A model generated the notes under the pieces. It made no database searches, was not told the origin of the DNA, and saw nothing but the letters and a program-made list of their open reading frames with translations. A DNA stretch of 64,000 bases from Arthrobacter sp. ISL-30 (GTDB lineage Bacteria > Actinomycetota > Actinomycetes > Actinomycetales > Micrococcaceae): positions 1-64,000 of the forward strand of contig NZ_JAGGPK010000006.1 in assembly GCF_018613855.1 (NCBI RefSeq). Direction: 5' to 3'. This document shows positions 51,473-63,904 of this stretch, one piece after another. How positions within the stretch are numbered: the first letter of the stretch is position 1; the number at the start of each line of letters is the position of its first letter. The position numbers and the translations under genes are program-made.

Positions 51473-51533
51473 ATTGGCAGCGGGTGCCGTTGCCAACGAG
51501 TCCTTCGGGACTCTGGAAAGGAACACAGGGAAT

Positions 51534-52638
51534 ATGGTGCACAAAGTAAAGGCCGTCATCGCGCGGGAGAAGAACGCCCCGGTGGCCGTGGAGACGATCC
51601 TGGTGCCGGACCCCGGTCCGGGCGAAGCCTTGGTGGACATCCTTACTTGCGGGGTCTGCCACACAGACCTGCATTACAAGCAGGGTGGAATCACCGACGA
51701 TTTCCCCATCCTGCTCGGTCATGAGGCCACGGCTGTGGTCAGCGCGGTGGGTTCCGGCGTCACCGAGGTGGCTCCCGGAGACCGGGTCATCCTGAACTGG
51801 CGGGCCGTGTGCCGGGCAGTGCCGGGCCTGCGCCAAGGGCCAGCCGCAATACTGCTTCAACACCCACAACGCCCGCCAGAAGATGACCCTGGAGGATGGC
51901 ACGGAGCTCTCGCCGGCCCTGGGTATCGGAGCGTTCGCTGAGAAGACCCTGGTGGCTGCAGGGCAGTGCACCAAAGTGGACGAGGACGCCGACGCGGCCG
52001 CCGTCGGGCTTCTCGGCTGCGGTGTCATGGCCGGCATCGGTGCAGCGATCAACACCGGCGAGGTAAAGCGCGGCGAATCAGTGGCCGTGATTGGCTGCGG
52101 CGGGGTGGGCATTGCCGCGATCGCCGGCGCCAAACTCGCCGGTGCCACCACGATCATCGCAGTGGACATCGATTCCAACAAGGTCGAGATGGCCAAGTCC
52201 CTCGGCGCCACGCACGGCGTGAACTCCAGCGAAGAAGACCCGATTGATGCGATCCGGGCCCTGACGGGGGGCAACGGCGCGGACGTGGTGATCGACGCCG
52301 TCGGACGTCCCGAGACGTACAAGCAGGCCTTCTACGCCCGCGACCTCGCCGGCCGCGTGGTGCTGGTGGGCGTCCCGGCGCCGGACATGAAGCTCGAGCT
52401 GCCCCTGCTGGACGTCTTCGGCCGTGGCGGCTCCCTGAAGTCCTCCTGGTACGGGGACTGCCTGCCCTCCCGCGACTTCCCCATGCTGGTCCAGCACTAC
52501 AAGCAGGGCAACCTGGACCTGGACGCCTTTGTCTCCGAACGGATCACCATCGACCAGGTGGAAGAAGCGTTCACCAGGATGCACGAGGGCAAGGTGCTGC
52601 GTTCAGTCGTCGAACTTCCTTCGGCGAGGGTACGCTGA
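51534..52638 (+). pseudogene. Mycothiol-dependent formaldehyde dehydrogenase, frameshifted by +1 nt
   Basis: A zinc alcohol dehydrogenase of the S-(hydroxymethyl)mycothiol type. The N-terminal frame (from 51534) has the catalytic zinc motifs 'CGVCHTD' (C39, C42) and 'GHE' (H63). The frame breaks after C93 ('NWRAVC'), at an extra C in 51812-51813. In the other frame the sequence continues with a Cys-rich structural zinc segment ('[14 protein letters not shown]'), then '[32 protein letters not shown]', the Rossmann '[17 protein letters not shown]' and the C-terminus at 52638. Intact it would oxidise formaldehyde as the mycothiol adduct. As given, the reading is broken in the structural zinc lobe. 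Confidence 0.86.
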
Positions 52639-53258
52639 TGGGCGTCACTATCGAGAACCTGGTCACCTCGGGCACTTTCTCGCTCGACGGCGGCACCTGG
52701 GACGTGGACAACAACGTCTGGATCATAGGGAACGACGACGAATGCGTCATCATCGACTCCCCGCACGATGCGGACGCCATCATCAACCAGGTCCGCGGCC
52801 GTAAGGTCCTGGCCATCCTGCTGACCCACGCGCACAACGACCACATCGGGGCGGCCCGGGCGGTGGCGGAGGCCGTGGGCGCCCCGATCTACCTCAACCC
52901 CGAGGATCTGATGCTCTGGGAGCAGGTGTATCCCGACGCCGGTCCGCACCGCTACCTCGGCGACGGCGACGTTTTCGAGGTTGCCGGCACCGCGCTGCAG
53001 GCCCTCCACACACCAGGCCACTCACCGGGCTCCACGTGCTTCTACCTGGAAAGCGAAGGCACAGTTTTCACCGGGGACACCCTGTTCAACGGCGGTCCGG
53101 GAGCGACCGGCCGGTCTTACAGCGACTACCCCACCATCCTGGCCTCGATCCGGGAAAGGCTGCTGGTCCTTCCGGCGGAGACCGTGGTCCGCACCGGGCA
53201 CGGGGAGAACACCTCTATTGCTGCCGAGCGGGAGACGCTGGCCCAGGTGAACCAGTAG
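52638..53258 (+). CDS. Metallo-beta-lactamase-fold hydrolase (C1 pathway)
   Basis: A 206-aa protein with H64-x-H66-x-D68-H69 ('LLTHAHNDHIGAA'), then 'LHTPGHSPGSTCFYLES' and 'VFTGDTLFNGG'. It is a glyoxalase II-like hydrolase. Genes of this type commonly follow the mycothiol formaldehyde dehydrogenase and are proposed to hydrolyse S-formylmycothiol to formate; that role is inferred, not proven here. The ATG overlaps the end of the upstream gene (TGATG). Confidence 0.86.
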   Translation: MGVTIENLVTSGTFSLDGGTWDVDNNVWIIGNDDECVIIDSPHDADAIINQVRGRKVLAILLTHAHNDHIGAARAVAEAVGAPIYLNPEDLMLWEQVYPDAGPHRYLGDGDVFEVAGTALQALHTPGHSPGSTCFYLESEGTVFTGDTLFNGGPGATGRSYSDYPTILASIRERLLVLPAETVVRTGHGENTSIAAERETLAQVNQ

Positions 53259-53284
53259 AGCAGGGTTTCCCACATCAAGCAGGA

Positions 53285-53325
53285 CCCAGTAAGGCGCGCC
53301 AGGAAAGCTGGCGCGCCTTACTGGG
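53285..53325 (+). terminator. Strong 18-bp stem-loop before the formate dehydrogenase gene
   Basis: CCCAGTAAGGCGCGCCAG pairs perfectly with CTGGCGCGCCTTACTGGG across a 5-nt loop (GAAAG). It starts 27 bp after the MBL gene and ends 15 bp before the fdh start. No T-tract. It is either a terminator ending the betB-permease-MBL transcript or an RNA structure acting on the next gene. Confidence 0.75.
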
Positions 53326-53340
53326 CGGTCAAGAAGCACG

Positions 53341-55701
53341 ATGCTAGCCGGTAAGAAAGTTGGAACAATGAAGTTCGGCAAACAGCCCGCCCCAGTCGCG
53401 GACATCAACGAGGACGCCCTCGCCGTCGGGAAGCCCAAGACGGAAGCCGCAGGCGTCAAGGCCGTGATGGTCGCGCTGGAGCGCGCTGTGGCCCAGGCCG
53501 GTGTCACCCGCACGGCCCAGTCACTGCTGCGCCTGAACCAGCGCGGCGGCTTTGACTGTCCGGGCTGTGCCTGGCCGGAGTCGGACAAGAAGCGCAAGGC
53601 GGCCGAGTTCTGCGAAAACGGGGCGAAGGCCGTGGCCGAGGAAAACACGCTCCGCACCGTCGGGGTGGAGTTCTGGGCCCGGCATTCCATCGCGGAACTG
53701 GCGGAGAAGACGGAGTACTGGCTGGGGAACCAGGGCAGACTCAGTGAACCGGTGGTGGTCCGGGAAGGCGACACCCACTATTCGCCGATCTCCTGGGCGG
53801 ATGCCTTCGAGCTCATCGGTGAACACATCCGGCCCAGCACGCCTGACCGTTGCGTGTTTTACACCTCTGGCCGGACGGCCAATGAAACCGCGTTCATGTA
53901 CCAGTTGTTTGCGCGGTCCCTGGGGACGAATAACCTGCCGGACTGTTCGAACATGTGCCACGAGTCCTCCGGGTCGGCGCTGAACCCGACCATCGGGATC
54001 GGCAAGGGGACCGTGTCCCTGGAGGACATTCATGATGCGGAACTGATTTTCGTGGTGGGGCAGAACCCCGGGACGAACCATCCGCGGATGTTGTCGGCGT
54101 TGAAGGAGTGCAAGGACAAGGGCGGCAAGGTGGTGGCGGTGAATCCGCTGCCCGAGGCCGGTTTGTTCAATTTCAGGGACCCGCAGACGGTTTCAGGGGT
54201 GGTGGGCGGCGGCACGCCGCTGGCCGACGAATTCCTGCAGATCAAGGTGGGCGGGGACCTGGCGTTGTTCCAGGCCCTGGGGCACCTGCTGCTGGCCGAG
54301 GAGCAGCGCCACCCGGGCACGGTCGTTGACCGGTCCTTCATCGAGGCGCAGACGGACGGTTTCGAGGCGTACCGCCGGGCCCGTCGGGAGCTGGACTGGG
54401 CGGAAACCGTGAAGGCCACCGGCCTGTCCCGTGGGCAGATCGAGACCGTGGCGTCCATGCTGGTGGCATCCAAGGCCACGATTTTCTGTTGGGCGCTGGG
54501 GGTGACGCAGCAGCCGCATTCGGTGGACACGATCAAGGAAATGGTCAATGTCCTGCTGCTGCAGGGCAACTTCGGCAAGCCCGGGGCGGGGGCGTGCCCG
54601 GTGCGCGGGCACTCCAACGTCCAGGGCGACCGGACCATGGGCATCTGGGAGAAACCGAAGGAATGGCTGCTGCGGGCCCTGGATGCGGAGTTCGGGATCG
54701 TCTCCCCGCGCGGGCACGGCTTTGATGCGGTGGAGGCCATGGAGGCGTTCGAGCGCAACGAGGTGGACGTGTTTGTGTCCATGGGCGGGAACTTCTCGCT
54801 CGCCTGCTCCGACACCGAGGCCCTGGAGGCCGGGATGCAGCGGATCGGGCTGACCGTGCATGTGTCCACCAAGCCCAACCGCTCCCACATTTTGCACGGC
54901 CGCACCTCGCTGATCCTGCCTACCCTGGGCCGGACGGACAAGGATGACAAGCACCCGACGGGCGCGCAGTTCCTGTCCGTGGAGGACTCCATGTCCGTGG
55001 TGCACTCCACGCAGGGCCGGCTGCAGCCGGTCTCGGAGCATCTGCTGGCCGAACCGGTGATTATTGCCCGGATGGCCGACGCCGCCCTGGGCGAGGATCA
55101 CCCGGTGGACTGGAAGGCCATGGCCGAGGACTACGACGTGATTCGGGACCACATCTCCCGCGTCATCCCCGGCTTCCAGGACTTCAACTCCCGCATCCGG
55201 ACCAAGAACGGCTTCGTGCTGCCCAACCCGCCCCGGGACACAAGGTCCTTCAACACGGACATCGGACGCGGCCGCTTCACCGTCAGCCCGCTGGAATACC
55301 TGACCCCGCCCCAGGGGCATCTGGTGCTGCAGACCATCCGCAGCCACGACCAGTACAACACCACCTTCTACGGCGTGGATGACCGGTACCGCGGCATCTC
55401 CGACGGCCGCCGCGTGATCCTGCTCCACCCCGAAGACCTGGCCGAGCACGGCTTCAAAGACCGGGACCTCGTCGACGTGGTCAGCACGTTCCAGGGACAG
55501 GACCGGCACGCCGAAAAGTTCCGCCTGGTCGCCTACCCCACCGCGAAAGGCTGCGCCGCGGCCTACTTCCCCGAAGCCAACGCCCTGGTCCACAAGGAAA
55601 ACGTCGCCGCGAATCCAACACCCCCGGCTTCAAAGCCATGTTCGTCCGCTTCATACCGCACCAAGAGACTCTCTCAGCGGATTAGTTTTCTGCATTTCTG
55701 A
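53341..55701 (+). CDS. FdhF/YdeP-type molybdopterin oxidoreductase, C-terminus frameshifted
   Basis: A 786-aa as-read protein of the formate dehydrogenase alpha-like family. It has the N-terminal Cys motif 'DCPGCAWPE', 'SNMCHESSGSALNPTIGIGKGT', 'VVGQNPGTNHPRMLSAL' and the molybdopterin part 'CPVRGHSNVQGDRTMGI', and then 'IRSHDQYNTTFYGVDDRYRGI'. It should oxidise formate to CO2. Close to the C-terminus a single C is missing after 55608. In the corrected frame the end reads 'NVARESNTPGFKAMFVRFIPHQETLSAD' and stops at 55685; as given, the last ~28 residues are out of frame and stop at 55701. The effect on function is unknown. ATG 53368 is an alternative start. Confidence 0.82.
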   Translation: MLAGKKVGTMKFGKQPAPVADINEDALAVGKPKTEAAGVKAVMVALERAVAQAGVTRTAQSLLRLNQRGGFDCPGCAWPESDKKRKAAEFCENGAKAVAEENTLRTVGVEFWARHSIAELAEKTEYWLGNQGRLSEPVVVREGDTHYSPISWADAFELIGEHIRPSTPDRCVFYTSGRTANETAFMYQLFARSLGTNNLPDCSNMCHESSGSALNPTIGIGKGTVSLEDIHDAELIFVVGQNPGTNHPRMLSALKECKDKGGKVVAVNPLPEAGLFNFRDPQTVSGVVGGGTPLADEFLQIKVGGDLALFQALGHLLLAEEQRHPGTVVDRSFIEAQTDGFEAYRRARRELDWAETVKATGLSRGQIETVASMLVASKATIFCWALGVTQQPHSVDTIKEMVNVLLLQGNFGKPGAGACPVRGHSNVQGDRTMGIWEKPKEWLLRALDAEFGIVSPRGHGFDAVEAMEAFERNEVDVFVSMGGNFSLACSDTEALEAGMQRIGLTVHVSTKPNRSHILHGRTSLILPTLGRTDKDDKHPTGAQFLSVEDSMSVVHSTQGRLQPVSEHLLAEPVIIARMADAALGEDHPVDWKAMAEDYDVIRDHISRVIPGFQDFNSRIRTKNGFVLPNPPRDTRSFNTDIGRGRFTVSPLEYLTPPQGHLVLQTIRSHDQYNTTFYGVDDRYRGISDGRRVILLHPEDLAEHGFKDRDLVDVVSTFQGQDRHAEKFRLVAYPTAKGCAAAYFPEANALVHKENVAANPTPPASKPCSSASYRTKRLSQRISFLHF

Positions 55702-55713
55702 CCCTTATTAGCC

Positions 55714-55764
55714 CGAGATCGACGGCGACATTCCGGCAAGTCCGCAGTGTCGCCGTCGTTCTTT
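55714..55764 (+). terminator. Hairpin (copy 1 of a duplicated element), likely terminator
   Basis: Stem CGACGGCGACA (55720-55730) with TGTCGCCGTCG (55748-55758), 17-nt loop, then TTCTTT. It ends the fdh transcript. Its sequence from 55714 recurs at 59313 with 45 of 49 bases identical. Confidence 0.8.
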
Positions 55765-55770
55765 AACCAA

Positions 55771-55811
55771 ACAGGGTCAGTTTTGCTGCAACCAGACAGG
55801 GTCAGTTTTGC
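55771..55811 (+). repeat. 16-bp direct repeat, two copies
   Basis: ACAGGGTCAGTTTTGC at 55771-55786 and 55796-55811, 25 bp apart, each preceded by CCA(A/G). A degenerate relative (AGAGGGTCAAAGTTGC) follows the second hairpin near 59370. Confidence 0.85.
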
Positions 55812-55818
55812 CGATATC

Positions 55819-55854
55819 AGGATATCGTTATCTCGGCATTAGGATATCGTTATC
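55819..55854 (+). promoter_or_regulatory. Tandem 14-bp sites upstream of the lyase gene
   Basis: AGGATATCGTTATC at 55819-55832 and 55841-55854, 22 bp apart (two helical turns). Each contains GATA-TCGT-TATC. Their spacing and the nearness to the start at 55898 suggest paired regulator sites. Confidence 0.6.
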
Positions 55855-55897
55855 ACCCGGCACAACCGGGACCATCCACATCCAAAGGAGTATGCGA

Positions 55898-58800
55898 ATG
55901 AACCCTGTTAACCCGGATCTTGGCCGCCGGGCCCTGCTTCAGGCCGCGGGTCTTGGGACGGTGGTCGGCGTAGTTCACACAGCGCAGGCACGGGCGGCGC
56001 AGGCCACACCTTGGGCGGGAGGACCCGTCGATCACGCCTATGTCATGACGGATGCCACTATGCCTGGTCCGGCCTTCGCCCACCCCGGCATCCTCCACCG
56101 GGCCGAAGACCTTGAGCGCATGCGTCGTGCTGTTGCCGGCAAGGAGCAGCCGATCTACGACGGATACTTGGCCATGGCAGCGAATGCCCGGTCCTCGTAC
56201 TCCTACAAAGTGCAAAACACAGGCCAAGTCACTTCATGGGGCCGGGGGCCGTCCAACTTCCCGGGCCAGGCAGCCGGCGATGCGGCCGCTGCTTACCAGA
56301 ACGCGCTCATGTGGGCTGTTACCGGAGACAAGCGCCATGCCGACAAGTCTCGCGACATCCTCAACGCCTGGACACGAAGCCTTACCGCCATCACGGGGGC
56401 TGACGGACAGCTCGGGTCAGGCCTCCAGGGCTTCAAGTTTGCGAACGCCGCTGAGCTCCTGCGGCACAGCGGATACGACGGGTGGCCGGAGGAGGACTTC
56501 CAGGCCTGCGTGCGCTCCCTGCGCACCGTCTGGTACGAGTCCCTTTCCGGCTATGCGCTCTTCGCCAACGGAAACTGGGACGACGCCGCATTGCAAACGA
56601 TCCTCGCCGTCGCCGTGTTGAGCGACGACAGGGTCATGTTCGAGAATGGCCTCCGGTGGGCAGCCTTCGGCTCCGGCAACGGCTCGGTGCTCAATCGTGT
56701 AGTCAACGATTCCGGCCAAGGCCAGGAAAGCGGGAGGGACCAGCCGCACGAGCAGCTCGGACAAGGCCTGCTCGGTTATTGTGCCCAGGTCGCGTGGAAT
56801 CAGGGTGTGGACCTTTTCGCCCTGGCCGGACGGCGGATCCTTGCCGGATACGAGTACAACGCCCGCTACAACCTGGGCTATGACGATGTCCCCTTCGTCG
56901 CCGACCTTGACCGCACGGGCAAATACCTCAAGACGGCGATCTCACCGAGGGGGCGCGGCGAGTTCCGCCCGATCTACGAACTGGCCTACTCCCACTACGT
57001 CAGCCGGCTCGGACTGTCCGCACCCAACACCCAGGCCGCGGTTTTCCGTGGCGTGGACGGCTCCCGCATTATCGAAGGCTGGCATGAGGATGATCCGGGC
57101 TGGGGAACCCTCACCTACGCCCGACCGGCAGCAGGCGGCAGCACGCCGTCGTCCGTTCCCGGGGGCCCGGGCGGTCTCCGCGCTGTCGGCGCAGAAGGGC
57201 GGATCACCCTGACCTGGATCGGGGCAGTCGAACCGAGCAGCGGCGCTCCGGCGCGCAGCTATACCGTCAAGCGCTCCGAAGCAGGCGGCGACTACAGCGT
57301 GATAGCTGCCGACGTGACTGCCAATGAGTTCATTGACGTCGCAGTGCGCCCGGGCCGAACGTACTTCTACATGGTCACGGCCGTCAATGAAACAGGCATG
57401 GGCCCGGACTCTGCGGCGGTGGCCGGCATGATCGGACTGCCCACGGGCTGGGCATCTATGGACATTGGTTCCGCGTCCCCTGCAGGCAGCACGACCTTCG
57501 ACGGCGAGCACTTCGTCGTCGAGGATCTGGGAAGCGACATCGCGGGCGCAGCGGACGACTTCAGGTTCACTTACACGCGCTTGAAAAGCGATGGCGTCAT
57601 CACGGCCCGCATTGGCCACCCCATCAGCTCCCAATACGCCAAGATCGGCGTCATGGTCCGATCGTCCCTCGACGCCGGCTCCCCGCATGCAGCCATGCTC
57701 ATCCAGGGCCTTCCCCTGCATACGTGGAGCGGCGTCTGGACCACTCGAAACACCACCGGCGCTCCCACATCGGGGACGGGCAGCACTCCCGTTCCACCCA
57801 CCCAAAAGGAATGCATCACGGTCAAGGCCGGATTCCCCATCACCGAGCACGGTTCCCTTCCGGATTCCGCGACCCCGCTGCGGGCCCCTTACGTCGAGGC
57901 AGCGGGCGATGGCTACCGGCTACGCATGCCGTATTGGGTACGCCTGACCCGGAGGGGCAGCACCCTGACGGGCGCCATCTCACCCGATGGCCGGGAGTGG
58001 ACGGACGTCGGCTCCACGGAAATCGATCTCGGTGGTGAAGTTTATGCCGGCCTGGCCAGTTGCTCCTGCCTTGGTGCCACCAAATCGGGCTCGACGACGG
58101 AGTCCGGTACTGCGACATTCGACAACGTCACTGTCGGCGGGTGGTCGGTAGCAAAGCCGGCGGGCACCGCTTCCGGCCTCACTGCTGCAGCCGGTGTGGG
58201 CGCCATTCAACTGGCGTGGGCCGATCCTGATCCGGCGGCCCGCTACACCGTCAAGCGCGGGCTCCAGCCCCTCGGTCCTCACCAGACGATTGCCAGCGAC
58301 GTCGGTCCTGTGGGCTTTGGAGTTCGGATCCGCTACGCGGACCCCACCGGCACGCCCGGCCGCCAGTACTACTACTCAGTGGCGAAGACCAACACGGCAG
58401 GGGAAGGCCCAGCTTCGGTTGAGGTCTCGGCCGTGATGCCTGCCCAAGTGAATCCGGTTCTGCAGGGCTCCCCGGCAGCATTCGGGAACGTCGGATTGGC
58501 TTTCTCACACCGCATCCAGGCAACCCCCGACCCTGCAAGCTACTGGGTCCGGAACCTCCCGCCCGGTCTGCTTCTCGACGACCGGACCGGCGTCATCTCG
58601 GGCATCCCCAGGCAGGCGGGGGCTTTTGATGTCACGGTAGGTGCCGGGCGATCAAGCGCCGCACTGAAAATCGCCATCGGCGTCGCACCTGCCGCACCTT
58701 GGTCATACTCAGACTTCGGCGACTATGTGCTCGACGAGCGGCAACTCGGTGCGTACGGCGTTGCCGCCCTCCGTACAGCGGGCAGCGCGAGCGCTGATGG

Positions 58801-59278
58801 CAGTCGTCTCATCGTCCGCGGAGCAGGGTCCGGACTGGACGTGAACGGTCAGGGAATGGTTGGCCATGTCCTCTACCAGCCGGTGACCGGCGATCACACC
58901 ATCATTGCGCAGATCACCAGTCGGGAGAACGCCGGGAGTGCTGCACGCGTAGGGGTAATTATGTGCAAGTCACTTTCTCCCTTCGACCTCATGGCAGCAT
59001 CCGTCCTCAGCGCCTCCAGCGCGCAGTTCTCCCGGAGGCTGGCAGTCGCTGGCAGGGCAACCTCCATCGGCAGCGGCTCGGGAACCTGGGTGCGCCTGAA
59101 CCGTACGGGAAGCACCTTCGCGGCTGCCGTTTCCTCCGACGGGAGTACCTGGACCACCACCGGGGAACAGGTGATTGCGGACTTCGGCGCCGCCCCTTAC
59201 TACATCGGCCTGGTTGTGTACTCTGGCGATTCGTCGACTCTGACTACGGCGACCTTCGACGACGTGGCCATTAGCTAA
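55898..59278 (+). CDS. Tat-exported alginate lyase-family multi-domain protein
   Basis: A 1126-aa secreted protein. The Tat signal 'DLGRRALLQAAGLGTVVGVVHTAQARA' is at the N-terminus. An alginate lyase/heparinase-like (alpha/alpha) toroid spans about 45-410 ('HPGILHRAEDLERMRRAVAGKEQPIYDGYLAM', 'ALMWAVTGDKRHADKSRDILNAW', 'NWDDAALQTILAVAVLSDD', 'PIYELAYSHYV'). It is followed by fibronectin III-like segments (~430-505 and again near 760-850), beta-sandwich domains of the DUF1349 type, and an Ig-like putative domain ('GNVGLAFSHRIQATPDPASYWVRNLPPGLLLDDRTGVISGIPRQAG'). It probably degrades an extracellular uronic-acid polysaccharide. I chose ATG 55898 (AAAGGAG at 7 nt). Confidence 0.84.
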   Translation: MNPVNPDLGRRALLQAAGLGTVVGVVHTAQARAAQATPWAGGPVDHAYVMTDATMPGPAFAHPGILHRAEDLERMRRAVAGKEQPIYDGYLAMAANARSSYSYKVQNTGQVTSWGRGPSNFPGQAAGDAAAAYQNALMWAVTGDKRHADKSRDILNAWTRSLTAITGADGQLGSGLQGFKFANAAELLRHSGYDGWPEEDFQACVRSLRTVWYESLSGYALFANGNWDDAALQTILAVAVLSDDRVMFENGLRWAAFGSGNGSVLNRVVNDSGQGQESGRDQPHEQLGQGLLGYCAQVAWNQGVDLFALAGRRILAGYEYNARYNLGYDDVPFVADLDRTGKYLKTAISPRGRGEFRPIYELAYSHYVSRLGLSAPNTQAAVFRGVDGSRIIEGWHEDDPGWGTLTYARPAAGGSTPSSVPGGPGGLRAVGAEGRITLTWIGAVEPSSGAPARSYTVKRSEAGGDYSVIAADVTANEFIDVAVRPGRTYFYMVTAVNETGMGPDSAAVAGMIGLPTGWASMDIGSASPAGSTTFDGEHFVVEDLGSDIAGAADDFRFTYTRLKSDGVITARIGHPISSQYAKIGVMVRSSLDAGSPHAAMLIQGLPLHTWSGVWTTRNTTGAPTSGTGSTPVPPTQKECITVKAGFPITEHGSLPDSATPLRAPYVEAAGDGYRLRMPYWVRLTRRGSTLTGAISPDGREWTDVGSTEIDLGGEVYAGLASCSCLGATKSGSTTESGTATFDNVTVGGWSVAKPAGTASGLTAAAGVGAIQLAWADPDPAARYTVKRGLQPLGPHQTIASDVGPVGFGVRIRYADPTGTPGRQYYYSVAKTNTAGEGPASVEVSAVMPAQVNPVLQGSPAAFGNVGLAFSHRIQATPDPASYWVRNLPPGLLLDDRTGVISGIPRQAGAFDVTVGAGRSSAALKIAIGVAPAAPWSYSDFGDYVLDERQLGAYGVAALRTAGSASADGSRLIVRGAGSGLDVNGQGMVGHVLYQPVTGDHTIIAQITSRENAGSAARVGVIMCKSLSPFDLMAASVLSASSAQFSRRLAVAGRATSIGSGSGTWVRLNRTGSTFAAAVSSDGSTWTTTGEQVIADFGAAPYYIGLVVYSGDSSTLTTATFDDVAIS

Positions 59279-59312
59279 GCCCTCCGCGCTGCAGTTCTGA
59301 AACTGTTTGATC

Positions 59313-59363
59313 CGAGATCGACGGCGACATTCCGGTAAGTCCGGGGTGTCGCCGCCGTTCTGT
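59313..59363 (+). terminator. Hairpin (copy 2 of a duplicated element), likely terminator
   Basis: CGACGGCGACA at 59319-59329 pairs with TGTCGCCGCCG at 59347-59357 with one mismatch position. Compared with the copy at 55714 it differs at four of 49 bases. It follows the lyase gene by 34 bp. Confidence 0.75.
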
Positions 59364-59446
59364 CCCCAAAGAGGGTCAAAGTTGCGCCCAGGTGCTGGGA
59401 GGGCTGCCGGGCGGTCACAATCCGATTTTGGGAAGACTCTTGAATT

Positions 59447-59460
59447 TTTGGGATCCCAAA
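59447..59460. promoter_or_regulatory. Candidate operator/promoter of the MFS gene (TTTGGGATCCCAAA)
   Basis: Perfect 14-bp palindrome 107 bp upstream of the MFS start. A TTGAAT at 59440-59445 and TGTAAT at 59462-59467 could be -35 and -10, with the palindrome between them, as expected of a repressor site. The sequence looks like a GntR-family operator. Confidence 0.65.
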
Positions 59461-59567
59461 CTGTAATCTGACTCACATTCCTGTATGCGATAGCAGTATT
59501 TCGCATCATGGAAATGCGTCCGTTGAGGCGCGGACGGGGGACTTCAGAGCTCAGTAAGGAGCGCACT

Positions 59568-61031
59568 GTGGATAAAGAGCTTGCAGGCGAGGCAACGGCA
59601 TCGCCGGGGATTGGATCACCGGCGAAAACGCTGGCAAAACAAATCGAGGGCGCATACCAGCGGATCGGCGTCACGGGCGCTCACCGACAAATCGTCTTCA
59701 TGATTCTTTTGGGTGTCTTCTTTGACGCCCTCGAACAAAATGCCGTAGGCATCACCGGCCCCGTCCTGCGGGAAGCATGGGGCCTGGGCGGCACCGAAAT
59801 CGGCTTTTTGAACACCATGACGTTCACGGCCACGGCCCTTGGCCGCCTGGCCACCGGGCTGATCGTAGACAAATACGGTCGGCGGCAGATGCTGATCATC
59901 AACCTGATCATCTTCGCCGGCGGTTCGTTGTTATGCGCCGTGGCACCCAACTACCCCATCCTGGCTGCGGGTCGCTTTATTGTGGGCTTCGGCCTGGGCG
60001 GCGAGATCGCTGTAGCAGTGATCATGATGGCCGAATTCTTCGCGGCCAAACACCGCGGTACGGCGGTCGGACTCATCAATGTCACGGCTGCCGGTCTTGG
60101 CAACATGCTCGCGCCGGCCTTCGGCATCCTGGTTTTCACCCTCTTTGACGGTCCGGACAAGTGGCGCTGGGTATTCGGCCTGCTCTTCATCCCGGCGCTG
60201 CTGGTCATGTTCTTCCGCCGGTTCGTCCCCGAAACTCCCCGGTTCCTCGCATCCAAGGGCCGGATCGACGAGGCGAACCTGGTGATTACCCGCCTGGCCC
60301 GGGGCAAGCTCTCGGGCCCGATCAGCGATCCCGAACAGTTCATCACTGCCGGGCCGGATCCTGAGGCAGCAAAGTCCTCGGGCCACTGGAAGGACGCCCT
60401 GCGCGGCAAGCTGCTGAAGCGGACCGTCCTGCTCTGCATCGCCGTCTGTATGTCCTATGCGGCCCAGATCTCCATGCTCACGCTGATGCCCACCATTCTG
60501 GTTTCGCAGGGCTACGCCGTGAACACCAGCCTGTGGTTCACCCTCATCATGCAGTCCGGCTCCCTGCTGGGCGCGGGGACTGCCGCATACCTGGCCAGCC
60601 GCCTGCCGCGCAAGAAGGTGCTCACCGCGGCGGCTGTCCTGGGCTGCGCCGCCGGACTGTCCATGGCCTTCCTGGCCACTGATATTGTGCTGGTGGTCAT
60701 CTTCGGAGTCCTGTTCAACTTCGCCGTGATCATCCTGAACACAACAATCTGGCTGTTCGCGCCGGAGCTCTACCCTACGAGCACCCGCGGCTTCGGCACT
60801 TCAATCATCCTGGCGGCGGGCTCCCTTTCGGGCGGCCTCTTCCCGTTGATCTCAGGGGCGGTCTTCGACGTCGCAGGATTGGGTGGCATGTTCACCACGC
60901 TCGCTGTGCTTTTCTGCATCCTGGCAGTCGCGGTGCAGTTCCCGCCCGAGACGTTCGGCAAGCCGCTCGAAGAAGATGCCGACGGCGGTTCCGGTTCCGA
61001 TGACGAGGAGGCTGCGATCTATGGGCACTAA
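59568..61031 (+). CDS. MFS transporter (aromatic acid/organic acid:H+ symporter-like)
   Basis: A 487-aa protein with 12 helices. MFS signature loop 2-3 is visible as 'GLIVDKYGRRQMLIINLIIF', helix 5 'GRFIVGFGLGGEIAVAVIMMAEFFAAKHRGTAVG', and the repeat loop 'ASRLPRKKVLTAAAV'. It matches the sugar-porter/aromatic acid symporter branch. It should import an organic acid or similar using the proton gradient. GTG 59568 follows AAGGAG; the open frame extends to 59508. The 3' end overlaps a racemase-family gene by 11 bp, so the two are functionally linked. Substrate unknown. Confidence 0.88.
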   Translation: MDKELAGEATASPGIGSPAKTLAKQIEGAYQRIGVTGAHRQIVFMILLGVFFDALEQNAVGITGPVLREAWGLGGTEIGFLNTMTFTATALGRLATGLIVDKYGRRQMLIINLIIFAGGSLLCAVAPNYPILAAGRFIVGFGLGGEIAVAVIMMAEFFAAKHRGTAVGLINVTAAGLGNMLAPAFGILVFTLFDGPDKWRWVFGLLFIPALLVMFFRRFVPETPRFLASKGRIDEANLVITRLARGKLSGPISDPEQFITAGPDPEAAKSSGHWKDALRGKLLKRTVLLCIAVCMSYAAQISMLTLMPTILVSQGYAVNTSLWFTLIMQSGSLLGAGTAAYLASRLPRKKVLTAAAVLGCAAGLSMAFLATDIVLVVIFGVLFNFAVIILNTTIWLFAPELYPTSTRGFGTSIILAAGSLSGGLFPLISGAVFDVAGLGGMFTTLAVLFCILAVAVQFPPETFGKPLEEDADGGSGSDDEEAAIYGH

Positions 61032-61719
61032 CGTCCCAAACATTGTCCTGCTCGTGAACCCAAACACGAACAGCAAAACGACGGCGATGATGGCCGAGCT
61101 CGCGAAGGAGACCCTCGCACCCCACGGCTTCGAGGTTATCGGCCTCACGGCTGCAGCGGGGCCTGCCATGATCGTAGACCCCGCAGCCCTGGCTGAATCA
61201 CAGCAGTACGTCCGAGCAGCTGTCCTCGACCATCTGTTGGGGTCCAGTGACGGTGCGTCGGAGTCCAGCGGCGGTGCGATAGCAGCGGTAATAGTAGCCG
61301 CCATAGGGGACCCGGGTCGCGAGCAGCTCCACGAGGAACTCGCCGTTCCAGTCCTCGGTATCGGCCAGGGCTCCATCCTGGCGGCGTCGAGGAGCAATCG
61401 CCGGTTCGGAATGGCTACCAGCACGCCGCTCCTGGCCTCATCGTTGGCCAAGCTCGTAGCAGCCCACGGCAAATCGGAGTGCTTCACCGGGGTCCGGTTG
61501 ACCGAGTCGGAACCGTTGGTGCTGGCCGCGGACCCGGAACGGCAGTACCGGGAGCTGGCAGCCGCCGTCGAACTTTCCACGCAGGACGGCGCCGAGGCCG
61601 TGATAATCGCCGGTGGTCCGCTGAGTTCCACGGCCGCGCGTTTGGCGAGGACCACAAACGCCGAGATTATCGAGCCGGTACCCAGCGCCTGCCGACTGCT
61701 GTTGGAGATGCTCGGCTAA
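61021..61719 (+). CDS. Aspartate/glutamate (hydantoin) racemase-family protein lacking catalytic cysteines
   Basis: A 232-aa protein starting 'NIVLLVNPNTNSKTTAMMAELA', the usual opening of hydantoin/Asp racemases. At the first catalytic position, where relatives have 'ACFGDPG', it has 'AAIGDPG' (A94). At the second, where relatives have 'LGCAGM', it has 'IAGGPLS' (about G198). The only cysteines are C154 and C224, away from these sites. It is therefore unlikely to be a two-cysteine racemase; another activity or a binding role is possible. The ATG lies inside the end of the MFS gene, after GAGGAGG. Confidence 0.82.
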   Translation: MGTNVPNIVLLVNPNTNSKTTAMMAELAKETLAPHGFEVIGLTAAAGPAMIVDPAALAESQQYVRAAVLDHLLGSSDGASESSGGAIAAVIVAAIGDPGREQLHEELAVPVLGIGQGSILAASRSNRRFGMATSTPLLASSLAKLVAAHGKSECFTGVRLTESEPLVLAADPERQYRELAAAVELSTQDGAEAVIIAGGPLSSTAARLARTTNAEIIEPVPSACRLLLEMLG

Positions 61720-61747
61720 CTGCGGGCACAGTGCGGCGGCCCGGTCG

Positions 61748-63904
61748 CTAAGTCTTTGGGCGCAATCTGGCCTGTTCCACCAGATTTGCCATCGGCGGCC
61801 GGGCTCCGTGGTGGAACACCATGCCCTCGGGCAGCCCTTCGATGGTGGCGGTGGAACCGGAAATATCGATGGTGATGCGTCCTCCGGCCATGGGGGCGTT
61901 GGTGATATGCAGGTAGCCGTAGGACTCCGGAAGTACTGGATTCAGCCACACGGCGCCGAGGGCAACATCCGGCTGGTAGCCCATCAGGCTCTTTATCAGC
62001 ATAAGTGGCGTGCTCGCCGCCCAGGCCTGCGGCGAACACGCCGTCGGGTAGGGGACAGGCTGGGCGAATTGCTCCCGGCTGAAGCCGCAGAACAGTTCCG
62101 GCAGCCGACCACCCGAGTACTCCGCCGCTTCCAACAGGGCGGTGGTGATCCGCTGCGCCTGCTCCACGAAACCGTAGCGCCTCAGTCCGCCCGCAGCGAT
62201 TGCAGTGTCGTGGGGCCAGACCGATCCATTGTGGTAGCTGGCGGGATTGTAGGCAGCCATGTCGCTCGCCAGGGTTCGGACTCCCCAGCCGCTGAACATC
62301 TCGCGGGACATGAGCCGTTCGACCACCAGCGGCGCCTTGTCCTCATCGACGATGCCGAACAGCAGGCAGTGCCCCATGTTGGAAGCGCAGGCATCGACGG
62401 GCCTCTTGTGACGGTCCAGCGCGACAGCGTAGTAGCCCTTGTCTGGCAGCCAGAACTGTTCGTTGAACTGCCTTTTCAGCAGCGCGCCGCGGTCCCGCAA
62501 CTCGGCCGCCAAGGCCAGATCACCGGCGTCGTAAGCTATCTTGGCGCGGGCCTGGTACGCGCTGTAGACATAGGCCTGGACCTCGCATACTGCGATTGGC
62601 GGCTCAGCCATCCTGCCGTCCGCGAAGTTGATGCCGTCCGAGGAATCCTTCCAGCCCTGGTTGATGAGCCCGCGGGGGTTCAGGCGCTCGTACTCGACAA
62701 AGCCGTCCCCGTCCTTGTCGCCGTAATCCCGGATCCAGTCCAGAGCGCGATCGGCATGGGGCAGCAGCGCTGCGATAGTGTCGCTGGCAAAACCCCAACG
62801 GCTCACCTCGCCAAGCACGGACACGAACAGGGGAGTGGCGTCGACACTTCCGTAGTAGGCCGACTTCCCGCCGAGCGCCAATCCGCTGGAAATGTCCAGC
62901 CTGACCTCGTGCAGGATCCTGCCCGGCTCCTCCTCGCTCAAATTGTCTACCACTTTGCCCTGGCGGTCGGCCAGGGTCTGCAGTGTGCCAAGGGCCAGGG
63001 ACGGGTCCACCAGAAGCGACATGATCGAGGCCCATATGGAGTCCCGTCCGAACAGGGTCATAAACCATGGGGCGCCGGCGGCCACAACAACGCGATCCGG
63101 ATGTTCAGGATCCTCAATCCTAAGGGCGCCGAGGTCTTCATAGCTGCGCTGTAGGGTGTGTTCGATGGAGGCATTGCCCATGTGCAGCACCGGGATCTTG
63201 GCCACCCACTCCTGGCGTCTCCGGTCGCTCAAGGACATTTCGCCCTCAGCAGGACGCCCAATGGGTGACACTGGGCCAGTTCCATCAAGGGCGGGTACCA
63301 CGCTTAGCAGTCCGGTCCAGTGTCCATGGGGCGGGACGGTGATACGGAAAGTAACGCCTTCCGGTCCAACCTCGCCACCGCTGGCTTTGACGACGACGCC
63401 CTTCCGGACGTCCCGCCAGACGCCCCGGATGGTCAGCGAATCGCCGTCCGGCTGGCGGGACTCTTCCCAGTGTCGTGGGACGCGTGCCTCCTTTACTTCG
63501 AAGAGGTCCGCGAAATCCGATTCGGCCACCAAGGCAACATTGCACTTCGCAGCATGCGATGAATAGTTCCGGACCGTGATCTCCTCCAGGATTCCGGCAC
63601 GCACTTCGCGCAGGCGCTCCACGATCAGTGGGCTGTCCGCATGTCCGTCAGAGCGGGGAACACGGCAGGCAAAAAGGGCACGGTACGGTTGCTTCATCTC
63701 CGCCGCGAGCGGCTCCAGCGGCTTGCCATTGACGGTGAGATTCCAGCGGGACAGGATGCGGGTGTCTTCCTGGAAAACCCCGTGCGAATATTCCGGATGG
63801 ATGTCTCCGTTTGCGGAGGAGATACAGAAGGACGTCCCCTCCACCAACGTAACCGTCCCGGTGCCCCAAGGCCCGGCAGCAGTATCGGCATTCCATCCAG
63901 CCAT
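61748..63904 (-). CDS. Glycogen-debranching (amylo-alpha-1,6-glucosidase)-like protein
   Basis: A 718-aa protein. The N-terminal glycogen-debranching domain (about 15-230) has 'GDIHPEYSHGVFQEDTRILSRWNLTVNGKPLEPL'. The C-terminal (alpha/alpha)6 catalytic toroid has 'GAPWFMTLFGRDSIWASIMSLL', 'YYGSVDATPLFVSVLGEVSRWG', 'GWKDSSDGINFADGRMAEPPIAVCEVQAYVYSAY', 'SYHNGSVWPHDTAIAAGGLRRYGF' and 'TACSPQAWAASTPLMLI'. It fits the GH133-like group acting on alpha-glucans or related oligosaccharides in the cytoplasm. ATG 63904 follows GAAGGAGGGG. Convergent with the racemase-family gene. Confidence 0.86.
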   Translation of the reverse strand: MAGWNADTAAGPWGTGTVTLVEGTSFCISSANGDIHPEYSHGVFQEDTRILSRWNLTVNGKPLEPLAAEMKQPYRALFACRVPRSDGHADSPLIVERLREVRAGILEEITVRNYSSHAAKCNVALVAESDFADLFEVKEARVPRHWEESRQPDGDSLTIRGVWRDVRKGVVVKASGGEVGPEGVTFRITVPPHGHWTGLLSVVPALDGTGPVSPIGRPAEGEMSLSDRRRQEWVAKIPVLHMGNASIEHTLQRSYEDLGALRIEDPEHPDRVVVAAGAPWFMTLFGRDSIWASIMSLLVDPSLALGTLQTLADRQGKVVDNLSEEEPGRILHEVRLDISSGLALGGKSAYYGSVDATPLFVSVLGEVSRWGFASDTIAALLPHADRALDWIRDYGDKDGDGFVEYERLNPRGLINQGWKDSSDGINFADGRMAEPPIAVCEVQAYVYSAYQARAKIAYDAGDLALAAELRDRGALLKRQFNEQFWLPDKGYYAVALDRHKRPVDACASNMGHCLLFGIVDEDKAPLVVERLMSREMFSGWGVRTLASDMAAYNPASYHNGSVWPHDTAIAAGGLRRYGFVEQAQRITTALLEAAEYSGGRLPELFCGFSREQFAQPVPYPTACSPQAWAASTPLMLIKSLMGYQPDVALGAVWLNPVLPESYGYLHITNAPMAGGRITIDISGSTATIEGLPEGMVFHHGARPPMANLVEQARLRPKT

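Follow-up and report, generated by a model that had tools for sequence, protein, structure and literature searches.

Two members of a bipartite palindrome family flank a lyase-like gene of Arthrobacter: candidate transcript-end elements of the genus

This work concerns a stretch of 64,000 nucleotides from Arthrobacter sp. ISL-30 (contig NZ_JAGGPK010000006.1, positions 1 to 64,000 of the forward strand; hereafter the window), in which two copies of a palindromic element, HP1 and HP2, lie on either side of a lyase-like gene. A sequence-only reading of the window had noticed the repeated hairpin and had proposed that the lyase gene was inserted at a terminator or is bounded by relics of a mobile element. 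The lyase-like gene is the sole gene between the two copies, and HP2 starts about 10-17 nt past its stop codon (59276-59278). The features at the locus are the following.

53341-55701, + strand: fdh-like molybdopterin oxidoreductase gene, ending into HP1 (Pfam domains, relatives)
55689-55787, + strand: HP1, bipartite palindrome at the 3' end of the fdh-like gene (repeat search, fold, covariance models)
55699-55703 and 55775-55779: HP1 outer arms, TGACC and GGTCA, 81 nt end to end
about 55715-55763: HP1 inner hairpin
55765-55814, + strand: 25-nt tandem duplication of the right outer arm of HP1 (AACCAAACAGGGTCAGTTTTGCTGC / AACCAGACAGGGTCAGTTTTGCCGA)
55892-59278, + strand: lyase-like gene between HP1 and HP2 (Alginate_lyase, fn3, DUF1349 and He_PIG domains)
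59288-59386, + strand: HP2, same family as HP1 (repeat search, fold, covariance models)
59374-59378: GGTCA of the HP2 right arm, the left arm being degenerate (TGAAACT)
about 59315-59361: HP2 inner hairpin
59406-61719, + strand: MFS transporter and Asp/Glu racemase module

The repeat pair and its relatives

The repeat was confirmed, as positions 55714-55762 and 59313-59361 are identical at 45 of 49 positions on the same strand, and a repeat search of the window lengthened the matching stretch to 97 nt (80% identity, spacing 3599). Both copies are also hairpins, as had been claimed, since they beat their dinucleotide shuffles in folding: the 101-nt piece of HP1 reaches -49.7 kcal/mol (z -7.7) and that of HP2 -46.6 kcal/mol (z -5.0), with 0 of 200 shuffles folding as well in each case. 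What had been described as degenerate similarity downstream of the hairpins (CCAAA.AGGGTCA...TTGC) is in fact the right arm of a second, outer inverted repeat, whose partner is a left arm, TTCTGACCCT / TTCTGAAACT, located ahead of the inner hairpin. The layout is TTTCTGACCCTTATTAG - inner hairpin - TTTAACCAAACAGGGTCAGTTTTGC in HP1 and GTTCTGAAACTGTTTGA - inner hairpin - GTCCCCAAAGAGGGTCAAAGTTGC in HP2. The second copy of the HP1 right arm (55790-55814) is a solo arm, and AGGGTCAGTTTTGC has two exact matches there. With our two covariance models, the narrow R1 and the wider R2, HP1 scored 88.3 and 72.9 bits and HP2 81.0 and 66.6 bits, respectively, both elements having been used in building both models.

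The repeat is well above chance, yet it is not exclusive to the lyase gene. The sequence-only reading had advised a search of the genome and its relatives for further copies, and these exist: five clear and one divergent in the ISL-30 genome, together with copies in many relatives. In the ISL-30 genome (4.36 Mb, 68 contigs, 96% complete) a DNA search gave 6 matches at five places: two in the window (55.7 kb and 59.3 kb), a third at 68.1 kb of its contig, and single ones on contigs C9 and C48. A pattern of the inner stem found these five again and, at other positions, two matches on one strand only. The divergent sixth copy, at about 10200 of contig C7, has the same arms and a different inner stem. 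Across 39 genomes the DNA search matched 9 (ISL-30 and 8 relatives), all from one of the 15 genera. R1 at E<=1e-3 had matches, many of them weak, in 188 of 198 genomes of the genus, the number falling to 67 at E<=1e-8 and to 35 at 1e-15. In a sample of the bacterial family, R1, a narrow model, found at 1e-8 matches in 6 of 245 genomes and 1 of 32 genera, and all six were among the 18 genomes of the same genus. R2 at E<=0.01 had no match in the 918 kb of 40 loci retrieved by searching for the lyase, most of them from Streptomyces and other actinobacteria and two from Arthrobacter. A known RNA family was set aside as an explanation, since Rfam at the gathering score gave 0 matches in positions 53000-62000 of the window; in e-value mode it returned sub-threshold matches only (positions 55600-59450 and nine member loci). 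The novelty lies in the family, which is bipartite, recurrent in the genus and so far seen only there.

Anatomy, covariation and placement of the family

Each element measures about 95 bp and is palindromic in two parts, outer arms (TGACCC...GGGTCA) enclosing a GC-rich inner hairpin. The outer inverted repeat reads TTCCTGACCYTCTTTG...CAAAGARGGTCAGGAA in most relatives and TTYTGACCCT...AGGGTCARTTTTGC-like in the ISL-30 genome, and the inner stem, of 12-14 bp, has a small loop and is separated from the arms by a short unpaired stretch on either side. Once second-strand duplicates were removed, 150 model-aligned rows gave 78 elements. Because these were drawn from the best-scoring matches, the window's own subfamily is favoured among them and families with other inner stems are under-counted. 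Covariation was analysed in an unconstrained MAFFT alignment of 73 of the 78 (72 distinct), from which the elements of L148, L149 and L325 and the second elements of L037 and L286 were omitted as divergent or truncated.

In the 73 members the inner-stem sequence varies by subfamily (CGACGGCGACAC; CGGGGCCGACACGC; AGCCCGCGACAC; CGGCCGCAGAACAAC; ACTGCCCCGGTACACC), with 98.9% of its cells paired and double changes at 12 of 14 pairs. Over the whole structure there are 164 double-change cells, against 54.5 in shuffled alignments and 24-60 when the register was slid. Pairing in the outer helix reaches 81.6%, and 11 of its 18 pairs have double changes, most often at its far end; taken alone it exceeds its shuffles by a small amount (81.6 vs 79.1% paired; 54 vs 32.6 double-change cells) and lies far above slid controls (35-55% paired). 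The TGACC and GGTCA arms are nearly invariant and the adjoining CTTTG/CAAAG is less conserved. Within TGACC/GGTCA, two double changes each were found at the T and G pairs and none at A, C and C. From the counts in the two helices, it is structure that is conserved in the inner stem, and mainly sequence in the arm core.

An arm core conserved as sequence would also suit an element that serves chiefly to bind a protein (a nucleoid or termination factor), or as a structured or processed 3' RNA, rather than as a terminator proper, and we judge this unlikely. The commonest pair is kept in 69 of 72 sequences at four of the five core pairs, and the end-to-end span of the arms is 80-81 nt in 47 of the 59 elements measured, and within 79-83 nt in 53 of them, despite the variation of the inner stem, a spacing that could reflect the factor. 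However, the rarity of indels among related copies could by itself explain the fixed spacing, and the placement of the elements at gene 3' ends is what a terminator predicts.

As a separate observation made by eye, a different palindrome, GGGGTCACTT...AAGTGACCCC, which contains the GGTCA/TGACC word, is present in L014 (about 1501-1600) and L266 (about 1500-1600), and half of it lies in the right flank of the element of L003.

The placement was counted on gene calls from a heuristic based on G+C content at third codon positions (GC3); the caller missed the lyase, so HP2 was set by hand. Gene 3' ends face the element within 120 nt on both sides in 44 of the 78 elements, on one side in 27 and on neither in 7, so that 71 individually have a gene running into them; in the uncorrected version, without HP2 set by hand, a facing gene end was found at 70. 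When the elements were grouped by homology of the flanking genes into 22 sites and classed by majority, the figures were 10 (both), 10 (one) and 2 (neither), 20 of the 22 thus having a facing gene 3' end, whereas 77 background gaps in similar material gave 19, 40 and 18. Furthermore, 24 of the 30 best-scoring loci belong to just two sites, 12 beside the gene labelled DMGDH (see below) and 12 between another pair of converging genes. The elements therefore keep their positions by inheritance, which is also how terminators behave.

The lyase interval and the origin of the pair

HP1, the lyase and HP2 lie between the fdh-like gene and a gene labelled DMGDH (dimethylglycine dehydrogenase) from its DAO, FAO_M and GCV_T domains. 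In ISL-30 this gap measures 12.4 kb, the order being fdh, HP1, lyase, HP2, the MFS-racemase module, further genes, LacI, a third element and DMGDH. We compared 20 fdh intervals, which were picked mostly for a nearby R1 element, so that their counts are not frequencies. In two relatives (G042, locus L135; G182, locus L136) fdh and DMGDH converge, the matched parts being separated by about 0.2 kb in which there is a single family element but no lyase, and these are the empty sites that the sequence-only reading had suggested looking for. In G140 the gap, of about 0.3 kb, contains an unrelated hairpin, and nine other relatives have a family element at most 50 nt from the DMGDH match and separated from fdh by 2-6 kb of unrelated content. 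The fdh-like protein has matches in 198 of 198 genus genomes (paralogues included), and a close lyase (E<=1e-150) was found in 5 of 206, ISL-30 included. The other four lyases share 68-69% identity with that of the window; three adjoin ABC transporter permease genes and the fourth a DUF3502 binding-protein-like gene at a contig end. As the contents of the gap differ and the lyase is found in only these 5 genomes at differing loci, the fdh-DMGDH interval seems to be a variable slot and the lyase a lineage-specific arrival there.

HP1 and HP2 are sisters in the tree of the 78 elements (ultrafast bootstrap, UFBoot, 94). Their identity is 0.81, compared with a mean of 0.66 among the 78, and they share rare bases at two columns; 145 of the 3003 pairs are at least as alike. 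Their kinship would be due to local duplication or gene conversion accompanying, or after, the arrival of the lyase. Such duplication is not restricted to this locus. In four other genomes a DUF559 gene lies between two elements (L296 969-2148, L311 895-2091, L321 955-2138 and L322 1009-2191), flanked on one side by a gene for a polyprenyl synthetase and on the other by one whose likeness to SMI1/KNR4 is weak (below the Pfam cut-off); a fifth genome (L319, G187) yielded a single element, and DUF559 is matched there in three pieces. The two elements of each DUF559 bracket are 0.78-0.79 identical, vs 0.60-0.74 to six elements from other sites, and each has closer orthologues in the other genomes (0.84-0.92). 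Close element pairs are also found beside DMGDH in G117, G120 and G185. Duplication of an element in place, such that its two copies enclose a gene, is thus a recurrent pattern.

These brackets bear as well on how the lyase entered. It is possible, although we hold it doubtful, that a circular or donor piece with the lyase and one element recombined at HP1, generating the order element-lyase-element. This would agree with HP1 and HP2 being mutually closest in the tree, with the one-element, lyase-free slot of G042 and G182 and with the similar DUF559 brackets of four genomes, whose pairs are more alike than they are to elements at other sites. Against it, the covariance-model searches detected no family element alongside the four related lyases, so that no donor arrangement is seen, and the bracketed lyase occurs in one genome only. 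HP2, moreover, may have come with the MFS module and then have been converted by HP1. The right arm of HP2 ends about 40 nt before the conserved CGGTCACA of that module, and an arm-bounded element of relatives, which is devoid of the GC-rich inner hairpin, ends about 43 nt (L122) before the same CGGTCACA. Given this matching distance, HP2 could be older than the lyase insertion.

The MFS gene has matches in 20 relatives, one of them partial, and the DNA homology of the module with its closer relatives, at other loci, starts about 20-60 nt past HP2, and later in others. Arm-bounded elements lie about 180-280 nt upstream of the MFS match in L118, L120, L121, L122, L123 and L125-L128, their AT-rich interior containing a common motif like AAATCAACCTTTTT. 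The arms are clear in four of these nine (L122, L123, L125, L126) and degenerate in five, and R2 matched only L122 and L125, at E of about 0.001. The MFS-upstream elements are possibly a sister family with a different role.

Elements with conserved arms and variable contents might also be related to miniature inverted-repeat transposable elements (MITEs), the outer arms being terminal inverted repeats, the cargo variable, the transposase provided in trans, so that copies spread through the genus, and the lyase lying between two insertions. We consider this origin decidedly unlikely. It would account for arms conserved by sequence around variable interiors, for the presence of elements at about 22 sites with unrelated flanking genes, for the MFS-upstream elements, which keep their arms around an AT-rich interior, and for the element pairs found close together. 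Target sites were analysed in the 59 of 78 elements with exact TGACC and GGTCA, at symmetric offsets 0-15, and direct repeats of 5, 6, 8 or 9 nt showed no enrichment at any offset, although old copies may have lost theirs. Repeats of 2-4 nt had a nominal, uncorrected excess at four combinations of offset and length, so a short duplication is possible; a shared 5-mer near the element ends was seen 24 times, vs 19.0 in shuffles (17 of 200 as high). The two long arm words, TGACCTTCTTTG and TGACCCTCTTTG, occur 5 times in 585 kb outside the masked members, always inside members (four new and one already known from an overlapping locus). Shorter arm words exceed their Markov expectation outside the mask (for instance GGTCAGGAAGG, 8 observed vs 1.2 expected; TCCTGACCC, 19 vs 8.5), an excess to which unmasked members may contribute; solo copies of the arm are therefore possible, and one lies beside HP1.

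Other evidence speaks against a MITE. Some of the outermost arm pairs co-vary as a paired stem, and the copies lie at gene 3' ends in positions conserved between species. HP1 gave no blastn match at E<=0.01 among 72,556 records of plasmids and 50,697 of phages, and on these grounds a phage or plasmid element was also set aside. The Y1 (TnpA-REP) transposase, PF01797, had 0 matches at E<=1e-3 in the ISL-30 genome, which is 96% complete, while the same search was positive in 5 of 14 control genomes, and an origin from repetitive extragenic palindromic (REP) sequences and their RAYT transposases was set aside accordingly. A possible resemblance of AGGGTCAGTTTTGC to an IS21 end was also considered. 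IS21-type proteins are present in the ISL-30 genome; the arm word with up to 2 mismatches had 29 matches, vs 9 for a reversed control, and those outside elements looked mostly unrelated by eye, one of the sites being the divergent sixth member on contig C7. Of the two proposals of the sequence-only reading, that of an extra gene at a terminator has stood, whereas no hallmark of mobile relics was established; many scattered copies unrelated to insertion had been named there as contrary to the mobile origin, and the copies are indeed scattered, mostly at gene 3' ends.

Several features of the genes themselves deserve mention. The lyase-like protein has, by eye, a twin-arginine-like leader, with in-frame ATG candidates at 55892 and 55898. 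Between HP1 and the lyase start, at 55821-55854, GATATCGTTATC is present twice, 22 nt apart, these being its only copies in the window within one mismatch, and the pair looks like the operator pair of a regulator; other loci have one-mismatch matches at three places of L111 and none within 2 mismatches in L109, L110 or L112. Near 55609 the fdh-like gene is one base short with respect to its relatives and its last residues are out of frame, so that the listed open reading frame reaches a TGA inside the left arm of HP1; the shift reflects an error of sequencing or else a mutation of recent date. A zinc-type alcohol dehydrogenase of this gene cluster occupies two overlapping frames (51474-52638), split near 51.9 kb, and this second apparent frame shift hints at assembly errors. 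The operon has a second strong hairpin, a perfect 18-bp inverted repeat with a 5-nt loop at 53285-53325, between the metallo-hydrolase and fdh genes.

Transcript-end reading and relation to known systems

Taken together, we consider it probable that HP1 and HP2 are members of a transcript-end (terminator) family, that the lyase is a lineage-specific addition and that the pair does not represent the ends of a transposon. The recurrence of double hairpins at gene ends in many members of the genus makes terminators likelier than the scars of a jumping gene. RNA polymerase arriving from either side would transcribe the inner stem, and the inner hairpin, with a short U-rich flank (UUCUU-like), would then stop the transcripts or have them processed or trimmed in either direction, whereas the outer arms would lengthen the hairpin or bind a putative factor. 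HP1 would then be the stop of the fdh operon and HP2 that of the lyase gene, a newcomer in the variable stretch that separates the fdh and DMGDH operons. At the stem ends, 144 of 156 strand readings have at least 3 T in 11 nt, a count made without a control. Around fdh, 25 of the 30 best relatives have a 60-nt piece at or below -30 kcal/mol within 220 nt of the stop, several of them of unrelated sequence and none controlled by shuffles.

Several observations weigh against this reading, in which the transcript-ending role is a prediction. Neither HP1 nor HP2 is flagged by a consensus scan for terminators of the E. coli type, which asks for 5 T in the 8 nt past the stem, so that termination would have to work with a weak U-tract. 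Conserved outer arms at near-fixed spacing are more than an ordinary terminator requires, and this reading does not account for them. Many of the weak R1 matches in the 188 genomes can rest on the inner stem alone, and inner-stem likeness is common to ordinary hairpins of the genus; at 30 fdh loci, R1 matched at E<=0.05 in 12 and the strict pattern of stem and both arms in 2. There is no facing gene end at 2 of the 22 sites by majority, or at 7 of the 78 elements, the convergent excess by site is modest (10 of 22 vs 19 of 77 in the background), and all the placement figures depend on GC3-heuristic gene calls. Finally, when 38 mostly strongest elements were compared with their ends, in both orientations and with gaps, the similarity of HP1 and HP2 ranked 301 of 703.

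A more far-reaching proposal, which we regard as very improbable, is a docking system specific to the genus, in which a dedicated protein would read the arms, the element would be a bidirectional stop and accessory genes would land there with duplication of the element, each newcomer bringing its own insulator. The lyase described here and the DUF559 gene of four relatives would then be examples of recurrent landing. If the transcript-end reading is confirmed, Arthrobacter would have an evolutionarily maintained double-hairpin stop module, often common to converging genes, with a conserved outer motif that is absent from ordinary terminators and offers a way to find the reader of the arms. It would also provide a defined set of natural insulators for the genus and a specific instance in which to examine whether accessory genes prefer terminators as settling sites. 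In any case, the scar of a mobile element is replaced by a transcript-end function that can be tested.

In the titles and abstract openings of the open-access literature on Arthrobacter palindromes and terminators we found no description of this family, and the part of one such source drawn on here tabulates palindrome counts for Arthrobacter livingstonensis with no family described (PMC12306157). Like REP sequences and bacterial interspersed mosaic elements (BIMEs), the elements are dispersed extragenic palindromes at gene 3' ends, but they are longer and of low copy (five clear), and no Y1/RAYT transposase was found in their own genome. With MITEs they share conserved terminal inverted repeats around a variable interior; however, this interior is a hairpin kept by compensatory change, no target-site duplication of at least 5 nt was found, and no partner transposase is known for the elements, none having been sought genome-wide. 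The uptake sequences of Neisseria and Haemophilus are reportedly paired as terminators. There, too, a short conserved sequence occurs as inverted pairs in terminators, whereas the long arm words of our elements were seen only inside elements in the 585 kb.

Bidirectional intrinsic (Rho-independent) terminators are similar in having a GC-rich hairpin after stop codons, often between converging genes, with compensatory changes. According to the part of PMC5381666 used here, terminators evolve by compensatory change and bidirectional ones are more strongly conserved. The elements differ from them in their length of about 95 bp, in a second, outer inverted repeat conserved in sequence at near-fixed spacing, in forming a sequence family over unrelated sites and in the failure of HP1 and HP2 in a strict U-tract scan. 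In Streptomyces clavuligerus, the sections of PMC8269248 consulted report structured 3' ends without a U-tract and bidirectional 3' ends, and a weak tract is therefore not disqualifying in this phylum. Such HS-U-lack or 'I-shaped' terminators of GC-rich actinomycetes resemble our elements in their strong stem, weak U-tract and location at 3' ends, but they are a structural class, whereas the Arthrobacter elements form a dispersed sequence family with conserved arms.

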